DNA from: Pedobacter sp. W3I1
Lineage (GTDB): Bacteria > Bacteroidota > Bacteroidia > Sphingobacteriales > Sphingobacteriaceae
NCBI RefSeq assembly: GCF_030816015.1
Contig: NZ_JAUSXN010000001.1
Location: forward strand, 4,650,001-4,714,000
Direction of reading: 5' to 3'
DNA length: 64,000 nucleotides
The position numbers and the translations under genes were made by a program. Within the stretch, counting starts at the first letter, position 1, and each line of letters starts with the position of its first letter. Under the pieces are notes generated by a model. The model saw only the letters and a program-made list of their open reading frames with translations. It was not told the origin of the DNA and did not search any database. Below are positions 11,101-28,087 of the stretch, in pieces.

Positions 11101-11732
11101 CATCTTTCAACACCCAGCCGATCATCTGAATACTGTCCGTGCCACTTAGACCCGATTGAAGTGAGCACGAAGCCGCAGGCAAAGTAAAACGGAAAGCGGG
11201 AACAAGCTTTGATCCCTTGCAACAAATTGCTCTCCTACCCTTCGACTCCGTTCAGGGGGACAACCGAATGGGAATTGCCAGACATGATCTTTTATGTTTT
11301 TTGAAAACGAACATTCAGTGGTCCTTCGGGAACAGCAGTCCCGTTATCCGCTTTATCCCGATAGAAAACCTGTGAAACAAGCAAGCACACTAAAACATAA
11401 CATGAACTAGTGCTTAAATCGGGATGTCCGCTACTACCGGGTTTATTAACAAAGTTAACTGCACAAACGGAGAATTCGATAAAAAATATCTCATTCATGC
11501 TAAACACCCAGCCTATAATCTTCTTACAGGCCGCGCCACCTAGACCAGATTGTAGTGAGCATCCCGATAATTCATCGGGATAAAACGGAAAGCGGGAGGA
11601 AACCCATATGTGTTGTACTGGCAGTGCTCTCCTAAATAATATTGAACTAGTAATGTATTTAAATTACCCCTCGACCCCGCTCAGGGTGACAACCGAATGG
11701 AAAAATCGCCAGACTTCAATAGAATGATCGTC
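11101..11732. repeat. Intergenic region with dispersed palindromic repeats
   Basis: Two related blocks, 11125-11275 and 11510-11700, share the order taga-cc-gatt-gagtgagc ... aaaacggaaagcggga ... ctcctacccttcgac-cc-cgttcaggg-gacaaccgaatgg. They belong to the same families as the repeats at 26.75, 39.6 and 63.85 kb. The 71-codon frame between 11292 and 11507 has no recognisable product. The region ends with the TC core that borders the IS110 element. Confidence 0.6.
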
Positions 11733-11806
11733 CTTTAGATTTGTTTTGATATTTTATTTAAGGATAATAACTATTTACTTTGCTTAAATTATAAATCAGA
11801 TTACCT

Positions 11807-11944
11807 AAAACGGTAGCGGCACATTAAAAGTTCGTCAAGGTTTTTATACCTATGAGATGATGCAATCCGCTACCGTTTTTTCCCTTAGTGACCAGATAAC
11901 AATTAGGGCAATACCCATTATTAAGGACTAGGATCGATGGGGTA
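11807..11944 (+). ncRNA. Predicted bridge RNA of the IS110 element
   Basis: A perfect 13-bp stem, AAAACGGTAGCGG (11807-11819) with CCGCTACCGTTTT (11867-11879), encloses a 47-nt loop. Within it TCGTCA (11832-11837) equals the left target strand and GAGATGA (11854-11860) is complementary to the right target TCATCTC. A second structure, CTTAGT (11884-11889) with ACTAGG (11927-11932), holds ATAACAAT (11896-11903), identical to the right end of the element (13020-13027). It also holds AAGGA (11923-11927), complementary to its left end TCCTT (11731-11735). These are the target and donor guides known from IS110 bridge RNAs. Transcription itself is inferred. Confidence 0.7.
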
Positions 11945-11982
11945 AAAATTAGGTAACCACTACAAACATAAAAAATAACAGG

Positions 11983-13005
11983 ATGATTGGCACTACAAAA
12001 TTTTTTATCGGGATTGATGTTTCCAAACCTTACTTCGATGTTGCATTGATGGCCGTTGTGAACCATGTAAAACAGGAGATAGCAACCGCACGGTTTGACA
12101 ACACAGCACCAGGGATAAAGCTATTTGAGAAGTGGTTGAAATCGCAGAAAACCACGTTCAATGAGGACTCCTTGATTGTCATAGAAAATACCGGGATCTA
12201 TCACCGTTTAATATGGACTTTCTGCAGCAACAGAAATCTGCCCATCCATATTGGCAATGCAGCCCATATCAAATGGAGCTTTGGGATAGCAAGGGGTAAA
12301 AATGATAAAATAGACAGCATACGTTTATGCAACTATGCATTTAAGGAAGCGGATGATCTAAAGGCGACAGCTGCCCTGGATCCCGAGCTGATGCTCCTGA
12401 AAGATCTGATATCAGCTCGGACAAAGCTGCTCAAACAAAGGTCTGGCATTAGCGTTTCGGTAAAAGAACTTGGTAATGTCAATGGTAAAGAACATCAGAA
12501 ACTGATTGAAAAAGCACTTAAAAATGCAATTGAGGGTATAGCCAAATCAATCAAGAACCTCGAAGATCAGATCAAAAAAATCATTACAGGAAACCAGGAT
12601 TTCAAGCAGAACTACAAATTATTGCTCAGTATCCCTGGGATAGGGCATGTTACAGCAGTATACCTGATTGGCTGCACGGGAAATTTTGCAGGGCGGCCCA
12701 GCGGAAAAGAACTGGCCTGTTATGCAGGGGTTGCTCCATTTGAACACAGCAGTGGTATAAGTATCAAAGGTAAATCCAAGGTACACCGGATGGCCAATAA
12801 AGAACTTAAAAGATTGCTGCATATGTGTGCATTATCTCTAATTCAACACAATCAGGAATTCAAGACATATTACAATAGAAAAAAGGATGAAGGGAAGCAC
12901 AGCATGAGCATAATTAATGCCGTTAGAAACAAGATAGCATTAAGAGTTGCTGCAGTTATAAAAAATCAAGCTAGCTATAAAAATAATTATAATATAGCTG
13001 CTTAA
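11983..13005 (+). CDS. IS110-family transposase (DEDD recombinase)
   Basis: A 340-residue intact transposase. The N-terminal DEDD (RuvC-like) domain shows FIGIDVSK (Asp12), VIENTGIY (Glu near 68) and NDKIDSIRL (acidic pair near 105-108). A coiled region follows at 150-205. The C-terminal transposase_20 domain has LLSIPGIGHVTA and YAGVAPFEHSSGISIKG, whose Ser is the predicted catalytic nucleophile. It is preceded by a non-coding left end with a bridge-RNA-like structure, which places it in the IS110 rather than the IS1111 subgroup. All key residues are present, so the element may be active. Confidence 0.93.
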   Translation: MIGTTKFFIGIDVSKPYFDVALMAVVNHVKQEIATARFDNTAPGIKLFEKWLKSQKTTFNEDSLIVIENTGIYHRLIWTFCSNRNLPIHIGNAAHIKWSFGIARGKNDKIDSIRLCNYAFKEADDLKATAALDPELMLLKDLISARTKLLKQRSGISVSVKELGNVNGKEHQKLIEKALKNAIEGIAKSIKNLEDQIKKIITGNQDFKQNYKLLLSIPGIGHVTAVYLIGCTGNFAGRPSGKELACYAGVAPFEHSSGISIKGKSKVHRMANKELKRLLHMCALSLIQHNQEFKTYYNRKKDEGKHSMSIINAVRNKIALRVAAVIKNQASYKNNYNIAA

Positions 13006-13026
13006 AATTTGTTTTTATCATAACAA

Positions 13027-13305
13027 TCATCTCGACCGAAGCACAGCGGAGTGGAGATCTTTGAACTATGCTATTGAAATCGAATTTGAAGATTTTGCTT
13101 CGCCGAGCCTTCGGGTTCTCGACTACGGTCGAAATGACGACACTTCTAATCGGCTCACCTCTTTTAAATTCTCCTGTAATAGATTTTTATACCATAAATT
13201 ACCCCTCGGGGTAACAATCCCTTGGTTACCAATCATACAAGTAAAATATTTGAGGAAATGCACATCAATTGTAAATTTTACTACTTTTGATTTATTCTCA
13301 TCAAC
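13027..13305. repeat. Dispersed palindromic repeat flanking the IS
   Basis: From about 13029 to 13142 a palindromic element runs from catctcgaccgaagcacagcggagtggagatct to ctcgactacggtcgaaatgacgac; its left edge is where the IS is inserted. An 82-codon frame over this element is a shadow. A possible -7 box TACTTTTG lies at 13282-13289 just before the SGNH gene. Confidence 0.65.
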
Positions 13306-27009: not shown

Positions 27010-28087
27010 TTAGTGAAAACTTCCATCTGGAATTTTATCATGTGTAGCTCTGGATTTTTCTGGAGCTATTATTTTTTCTAAATAATTGAATTGAGGATTG
27101 TATCTCTGCTCATTTTTCCAAAGATGGTACATCATTACCAATAGTTTCTTTTGCACGGCAACATAGCCCTTCATTTTAAATCCTGTTCGCTCAACAACTC
27201 TTTCATAAAGACTTTTAAATTGCGGCTGGTCATCCCTTACCGCACAAAATGCTGGCATAAACAGAATTCTTCTGATCCGGGAATTCCCCTTTTTTGATAT
27301 TTTTGTTTTTCCTATATGTTTGCCCGATTGGTTTTCTATCACATCGTAACCTGAGTATTTTACCAAGGATGCCGAATTTTTAAACAATGTAAAGCCATTA
27401 GTTTCAGCTACGATTACGCAAAAAGATAGCAGGTTAATTCCTTTTATTGCCGTAATGTTTTCATAGTGAAGATTTAAGACCTTGTCTGTTTTTAACAAGC
27501 TTTCCCATTGCCTTTTCCATTTCTGCTACTTGTTGCTCAAGCAGTTTTATCGTTTTGTTCAGCTGCTTTATAACTTCCCTGCTTTGGAACTGGGCATGGG
27601 TCAGTGCCTCAAGCTGGTTACCGATAACATTGATGGTCTCTTTTAGGTTTTGATGCTGACGGGTATAGTGTCTGAGTTCATACAATTTCTCACTTCCTGG
27701 TGTCCAAGGTTCCAGGTTCTTTTCTGCACCAATCTTAGCAAGGCCGCGGGCATCTATACTGTCATTTTTAGAGTTTGCTCCGTCTGCCTGTAAGTACTTC
27801 TTAGCTTTGTTTGGCAATAAAATACTTAACACTAAGCCTTTGGAATGCAGAAACCATGCAAGTTGTTCATGGTACACGCCAGTGGCTTCCATTACGATGC
27901 GCAGGGGCAGCTCTTCTTTCTGGTGCTGTTTGATCCATGCCAAAAACTCTTTAAAACCGCCAGGGCTGTTAGATAACTTACGGCTGGATTTTACAGTTAC
28001 TTTCTGGCTACTGTCTATGACCGACAAACAGCAATGAAAATCTTTTTTTGATACATCAATTCCGATGGAATACTTTAAGTTCATCAT
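27010..28087 (-). pseudogene. IS110-family transposase, split by a +1 frameshift
   Basis: The first frame (28087-27461) holds the DEDD domain: SIGIDVSKKDF, VMEATGVYHE and NDSIDARGLA, then a coiled coil. The second (through 27010) holds the transposase_20 domain: VKYSGYDVIENQSGKHIGKT and SKKGNSRIRR. They join if one A is removed from the five-A run at about 27488 (KLVK then TDKVLNLHYENI). IS110 enzymes are normally one frame, and the run is not a standard slippery heptamer. The copy is therefore inactivated, or carries a sequencing error. Confidence 0.85.

Follow-up and report, generated by a model that had tools for sequence, protein, structure and literature searches.

The analyzed window, a 64,000-nucleotide stretch of a Pedobacter-type genome, harbors at 11733-13026 what is, judged from its sequence, an intact and autonomous insertion sequence of the IS110 group, which combines a DEDD/Ser recombinase with a two-loop bridge RNA in its left end and is predicted to move. 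With a probability of about 0.94, the element moves by bridge-RNA-guided recombination as in IS621. This reading is built on an intact gene, a two-loop RNA with compensatory changes, the agreement and covariation of guides with flanks, empty sites in relatives, and multiple copies.

In the proposed mechanism, the recombinase would excise the element as a circle that is joined across the TC core, and the joined ends would rebuild a Bacteroidota-type promoter from which the bridge RNA would be transcribed out of the left end. The first loop of the RNA would pair with one target strand through TCGTC and with the other through TCATCTC, the second loop would pair with ATAACAA-TC-CTT, where the ends are joined in the circle, and strand exchange by the recombinase would take place at TC. 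Many sites should be open to the element, since the palindrome whose arm the guides read occurs in several hundred copies. Transcription, circle formation, and strand exchange are predicted steps, and the element is presumably still active.

Ends, recombinase, and candidate promoter boxes

The element, its core dinucleotides, its gene, and its candidate promoter boxes are located as follows:
11733-13026, + strand: IS110-group element of 1,294 bp, present in 6 copies in G000, the genome under study
11731-11732, + strand: left copy of the TC core, the dinucleotide common to both junctions in 6/6 own copies
13027-13028, + strand: right copy of the TC core, from the same comparison of the 6 own copies
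11983-13005, + strand: IS110 recombinase of 340 amino acids with D12, E68, D108, D111, and S257, from profile matches and alignment
11736-11743, + strand: TAGATTTG, which fits the Bacteroidota -7 box TAnnTTTG and is found at the same place in 19/19 distinct end pairs with a left end
13008-13011, + strand: TTTG in the right end, a candidate -33 box on the joined circle (20-nt gap) with a putative function, TTG being found at this spacing in 18/19

The first-pass annotation had placed the element at 11733-13028; its start stands, and its end is moved to 13026, with the TC at 13027-13028 being the shared core. The noncoding left end takes up 250 nt and the right end extends 21 nt beyond the stop codon, which is the layout of the IS110 group and not of IS1111. 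No terminal inverted repeat of at least 10 nt was found between the two termini; they are connected by an imperfect 18-nt direct repeat (83%), and the target duplication is limited to the two-base core.

The recombinase reaches 170 bits against the NCBIfam profile NF033542 (cut-off 140) and carries the Pfam domains PF01548 and PF02371. The hallmarks of the IS110 family are present, namely a DEDD RuvC-like domain and a C-terminal Transposase_20 domain with the catalytic serine. Matches to solved structures comprise two chains only, IS621 and ISCro4 (PDB 9t56), and the ISCro4 alignment spans residues 7-331 of the recombinase. The catalytic residues were placed from the printed alignment together with the residues named in PMC11208158; the two later aspartates, which the HMMER alignment puts off by three residues, were set right by eye. 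The intact state of the element that had been claimed from the letters is borne out by the 340-residue IS110 recombinase with its five catalytic residues, all of which are kept in 16/16 aligned sequences (the element and 15 relatives; L070, with a stop after 296 amino acids, was excluded). Named relatives of the recombinase with 75-93% identity are from Pedobacter, which points to this genus for the genome itself. Protein searches (E ≤1e-80) of sampled genomes, 399 from the family and 395 from the class, gave matches solely within the genus, and relatives outside the genus were taken from a separate search. A PADLOC search gave no match, and the Rfam families found across the window at the gathering threshold amount to three tRNA matches.

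A second IS110 recombinase gene is located in the window at 27085-28078 on the minus strand (L020, L021). It consists of two overlapping pieces with one stop, is ∼25% identical to the 340-residue recombinase, and has a weak match of the RNA model R1 (see below) beside it (E 0.2). Another IS110 type is present in G000 in five copies (L014-L018; ∼25% identical) with differing surroundings and roughly located ends, and R1 has no match in these copies. Contigs of draft genomes stop within the element described here (L152-L154, L159, L161, L163, L164, L167, and L168), as is expected for a multi-copy sequence that the assembler leaves unresolved.

The usual spacing between the two promoter boxes is 19 to 21 nt. 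The left end of the element starts with CTTTAGATTTG, and the fourth base of the box varies in relatives (TAGA, TAGC, TAGG) with TAnnTTTG being kept. Joining the ends gives TTG-N20-TAnnTTTG in 18/19 distinct ends, L069 being without the TTG, and the stretch between this TTG, which lies at a fixed spacing, and the donor sequence is variable. L065, which is without a right end and stands outside the 19, reads TAGATTTA at the place of the -7 box. Judging by these boxes, the circle junction would rebuild a Bacteroidota-type promoter. The Bacteroides fragilis consensus consists of TTTG at -33 and TAnnTTTG at -7 (PMC2483708, PMC7366714). For Flavobacterium johnsoniae, RNA-seq confirmed the -7 box and identified no -33 box (PMC7366714). 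The junction of IS621 rebuilds a sigma-70-like promoter (PMC11208158, PMC11208160).

The bridge RNA and its guides

The predicted RNA takes on two loops inside of a closing stem:
11801-11808, + strand: 5′ strand of the closing stem, UUACCUAA, which pairs with 11949-11956, the complementarity being kept through changes
11811-11875, + strand: target-binding loop with an outer stem (11811-11819/11867-11875) and an apical stem (11838-11840/11849-11851); compensatory change in 8/9 outer-stem pairs
11832-11836, + strand: left target guide TCGTC, equal to the left flank at 11728-11732
11854-11860, + strand: right target guide GAGATGA, complement of 13027-13033
11861, + strand: handshake U after the right target guide, facing the donor A; an invariant T in 22 aligned RNAs, with its role assigned by analogy to PMC11208158
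11889-11936, + strand: donor-binding loop with an outer stem (11889-11893/11931-11936) and an apical stem (11906-11908/11914-11916); compensatory changes
11896-11903, + strand: left donor guide ATAACAAT, equal to the right end plus the first core base at 13020-13027
11923-11927, + strand: right donor guide AAGGA, complement of the core plus the left end at 11731-11735 and invariant in 22 RNAs
11928, + strand: handshake C after the right donor guide, facing the target G; C in 21/22

Both loops are enclosed by the closing stem UUACCUAA/UUAGGUAA, whose complementarity score across relatives is 393 compared to a permutation mean of 326 and a maximum of 380 (0/5,000 reach the score). In L068, the best stem found is not homologous to this closing stem. 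In the alignment of 22 RNAs, the 5 helices comprise 22 pairs; 98.3% of the cells show a formed pair, and double changes are found in 33 cells compared to a shuffled mean of 6.5 (0/500 reach the observed value; slid controls give 4 at most). Further pair types, one of five covariation measures, do not rise above the shuffles (14 compared to a mean of 14.9, with 423/500 shuffles at or above the observed value). One pair in the outer stem of the donor loop, which lies outside the 22 and was read with one gap moved by script, changes from A-U to G-C to U-A. The compensatory changes support both loops, and the four guide segments lie inside of these as the first-pass annotation had assigned them.

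The covariance model R1, which was built from the RNA stretches without flanks, locates the RNA at 11801-11957 and its guides in the expected loops; this placement is not independent, because the model includes this sequence. Under stricter filters, R1 matches are found in 24/145 genomes of the genus. R1 has three further hits in the window, all of them weak and taken as chance: one on the opposite strand of the same stem (E 0.0097) and two at E 0.12 and E 0.2. A single-sequence fold (z -3.0) recovered the stem of the target loop but placed the left donor guide inside another hairpin, and the alignment was used instead. The pair set that RNAalifold gave for the donor loop differed and was replaced by the outer and apical stems that show compensatory changes.

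Four guide strings had been read from the letters, TCGTCA at 11832-11837, GAGATGA at 11854-11860, ATAACAAT at 11896-11903, and AAGGA at 11923-11927, and all of them sit exactly there. The same holds for their partners, TCATCTC at 13027-13033 (reverse complement GAGATGA), ATAACAAT at 13020-13027, and TCCTT at 11731-11735 (reverse complement AAGGA). The left target guide, however, has to be shortened to TCGTC and ends at C11836, as A11837 belongs to the scaffold and is invariant in 22/22 aligned RNAs even where the target base differs (e.g., L082). When the 250-nt left end was shuffled 5,000 times with its dinucleotides preserved, the four strings never occurred together in order. Singly, TCGTCA occurred in 17, GAGATGA in 26, ATAACAAT in 139, and AAGGA in 2,034 of the shuffles, which renders AAGGA weak evidence by itself.

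The pairing with the donor rests mainly on complementarity, since the right donor guide is invariant and the left one varies at a single position (A or G), at which it matches the right end wherever distinct ends were read (14 A, 6 G). In L077, the first base of the left end is changed. In IS621, the bases that adjoin the right guides pair with the other DNA once the strands are exchanged (PMC11208158). The sole exception to the corresponding C after the right donor guide is L062, which carries an A there and a T at the target position (one event).

IS621 has a CT core whose second base is nearly always T (PMC11208158). Such a core is not seen here: it reads TC in the register used, and a one-base shift would put the T second. 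As GT, AT, and TT cores also work in cells for the IS621-type system (PMC11208158), a TC core is compatible with membership in the bridge-RNA family. L063, L065, and L070 have CC at the left junction, which is read as CC by the left guide, and their right guide reads TC; in the two whose right end can be read, TC stands at the right junction. These junctions fit a top-strand cut after the first core base, by which the target would supply the left core and the donor the right one, and a right guide adapted to the incoming donor strand would be expected to give this pattern.

Target sites, flanks, and retargeting

The genome is a single 6.40-Mb contig, and five of its six element copies are identical (window copy included), with three substitutions in the sixth. 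In 6/6 copies, the flanks are TCGTC on the left and TCATCTCGAC on the right, and the site TCGTC/ATCTC is one arm of a dispersed palindrome. TCGTCATCTCGACYGNAG is found at 452 places in the genome (≤2 mismatches) compared to 1 for the reversed control pattern, which confirms the dispersed repeat that the first-pass annotation had named as the target. Its continuation on the right side of the element is:
13027-13140, no strand assigned: remainder of the target palindrome, with the opposite arm at 13127-13140 on the minus strand (T variant)

All copies in a genome have one guide and one target in common, so a single genome cannot separate recognition by the protein from recognition by the RNA. 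It is conceivable in principle, though very improbable, that the recombinase itself recognizes the palindrome and that the matches between RNA and flanks come from coincidence or from a shared ancestry of element and target. The relatives speak against this. Their RNA scaffold is conserved while the target guides vary with the flanks, several of which are unlike the palindrome (TCAGCTA, TCGCACT, TCCAGCC), and where a relative has a different right guide, its right flank differs accordingly, rather than the same loops being found at unrelated targets.

The 35 elements parsed carry 20 guide sets, with identical loci from two collections entered once. For the right guide, L065 and L073 are omitted as they have no right flank, and the remaining 18 sets agree with the right flank (TC and the next 5 nt) at 86/90 noncore positions, compared to a permutation mean of 36.5 and a maximum of 58 in 20,000 permutations that ignore phylogeny. 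With one representative per distinct guide, the agreement is 67/70 in 14 guides (permutation mean 25.2, maximum 47, phylogeny likewise ignored). The position past the five noncore nucleotides agrees in 0/18; because agreement stops here, the right guide is taken as 7 nt including the core. The four mismatches are found in L080, L084, L070, and L062, the last of which is a possible G-U.

In the left guide, the core and the next two bases agree in 17-19/19 and the following two in 11/18 each, and the agreement fades further out. This count omits the whole G093 set, because the left end of its representative L074 is duplicated; the outer left flanks in this set are TCGTC in three copies and CCGTC in two. 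Over six positions in 12 distinct guides, 60/72 agree, compared to a permutation mean of 43.7 and a maximum of 55 in 20,000 (phylogeny ignored). Mismatches include L162, the two of five G093 flanks with CCGTC, and the core base of L084.

R1 matches provided 25 further stretches. The 16 with a standard left end, 15 of them new places (L158 is the same place as L073), were compared to their left flanks; L165 and L169-L176 stand outside this comparison. The left flank matches the left guide over at least 5 contiguous nt in 14 of the 15 new places, and in L162 over 3. Most left flanks have TCGTC in common, so only two genomes are informative: G019, with a T for C in guide and flank alike (2/2 copies), and G038, in which 2/3 copies match 8 nt of the left guide. 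The guide of the seven G060 copies is that of L073, already part of the model. In the L060 genome, a second family, read by eye and kept outside the 86/90 and 60/72 counts, shows TTGTGTC/TCACTCA at three places (L106, L107, and L109). In two distant relatives, L173 and L174 (G027 and G071), the right guides ATCTCGAT and ATCCTGAT match the right flanks TCGAGAT and TCAGGAT; their sites are candidate dispersed repeats by resemblance, and a left guide was not identified in L173.

A natural one-base change in the guide is tracked by the choice of site, with 13/13 and 5/5 insertions in three genomes in which both site types are similarly frequent. The C-type right guide (TCATCTC) sits at C-type sites in 6/6 insertions of G000 and 7/7 of G122, and the T-type right guide (TCATTTC) of G093 at T-type sites in 5/5. 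C-type sites make up 197/453 of all CGTCATYTCGA sites in G000, 162/355 in G122, and 157/282 in G093, which puts the chance of this outcome at ∼5e-7 if sites are taken as available and insertions are treated as independent. L090 and L094 were first set aside for their equal 14-nt flanks; their guides were then read and included in the 7/7 of G122. No flank match of at least 150 bp was shown that links them to the copies they resembled, and L090 and L088 have 177 bp of right flank in common at 78.5%. That site choice follows a one-base guide change argues against recognition of the palindrome by the protein.

Slightly less probable still is that the left-end structure acts mainly as a regulatory leader of the recombinase gene and that the guide matches are secondary. 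The modeled RNA ends ∼25 nt ahead of the start codon (11957 to 11983) and could affect translation, but the guide stretches are among the variable columns of an otherwise conserved RNA and track the flanks.

The insertion site in the window lies between two genes. In the orthologous intergenic region of a related species (G122), the element sits in the other arm of the palindrome in opposite orientation, and the arm used in the window is uninterrupted (TCGTCATCTC, then other letters). At the same locus, G086 has the whole palindrome free of the element. Upstream of the orthologs of the downstream gene, G068 has one arm, elsewhere placed, and G130 has none; four such loci were compared besides the own one. 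Hardly credible is a spread of the copies via homologous recombination between the dispersed palindromes, which occur hundreds of times and could recombine, as the breakpoints are base-identical in 6/6 copies, no flank-to-flank match of at least 150 bp was seen among the six own copies, and the insertion in G122 is inverted in the opposite arm.

It is tentatively proposed, as a possibility that is more doubtful than probable, that bridge RNAs are retargeted in nature in two ways: by point changes in the 7-nt right and the ∼5-nt left guide, which track the palindrome variant present locally, and by duplications in tandem that copy a complete target loop. The CC-target/TC-donor subgroup belongs to this reading as well. 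In two of the five G093 copies (L074 and L085), which differ in place and flanks, the same 157 bp of the left end are duplicated in tandem, and this adds a complete second target loop. In L171 (G042), two unlike hairpins that resemble target loops lie in tandem; they contain ATCCTACGGGC and AACTTGCGGGC and differ in their left guides. The left flank CTTGCGGGC fits the second hairpin, the folding of the stretch is unremarkable (z -1.07), and the relatives L165 and L172 have one loop. The right ends of L165, L171, and L172 were looked for and not found, with a GC core being a candidate there. The double loop of L171 is a lead only, possibly toward a two-target bridge RNA. The duplication in G093 appears fresh and that in L171 older. 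In L169 (G010), the element is broken: repeated DNA of a different type cuts the bridge-RNA left end short after the left donor guide.

Relation to known systems

The element adds a new, well-supported member to the known IS110 bridge-RNA elements and is not a new kind of system, because the mechanism is known (IS621, 2024); bridge-RNA guidance and the targeting of palindromes have already been described for IS110 elements (PMC11208160). No description of this family was found in the main text of mainly open-access articles on IS110 elements or bridge RNAs in Bacteroidetes or Pedobacter, or on palindromic repeats of Pedobacter; such elements may be among the 5,511 target pairs of PMC11208160. 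There is demand for programmable bridge recombinases as tools for rearranging DNA, and solved structures turned up for two relatives only. With its natural guide-target pairs, single-base retargeting among them, and its empty site, this Bacteroidota recombinase family makes specificity rules readable from nature. It also places a bridge-RNA element in a palindromic repeat of another phylum, in parallel to IS110 elements and REP sequences.

The closest parallel is IS621 from Escherichia coli (PMC11208160, PMC11208158), which likewise has a DEDD/Ser recombinase and an RNA in a long left end, with a target and a donor loop that each hold a left and a right guide around a dinucleotide core. Further common features are a promoter that spans the joined ends, the targeting of palindromic repeats, and handshake bases adjoining the right guides. 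In contrast to IS621, the core is TC and not CT (or another register applies), and the promoter boxes are of the Bacteroidota type, whereas those of IS621 are sigma-70-like. ISCro4 (PDB 9t56) also has an IS110 recombinase, and the likeness is at the protein level. As in the IS1111/IS110 seekRNA elements (PMC11187229), an RNA from a noncoding region guides the choice of target. IS1111 elements differ in carrying their RNA in the right end and in having long subterminal inverted repeats (PMC11208160).
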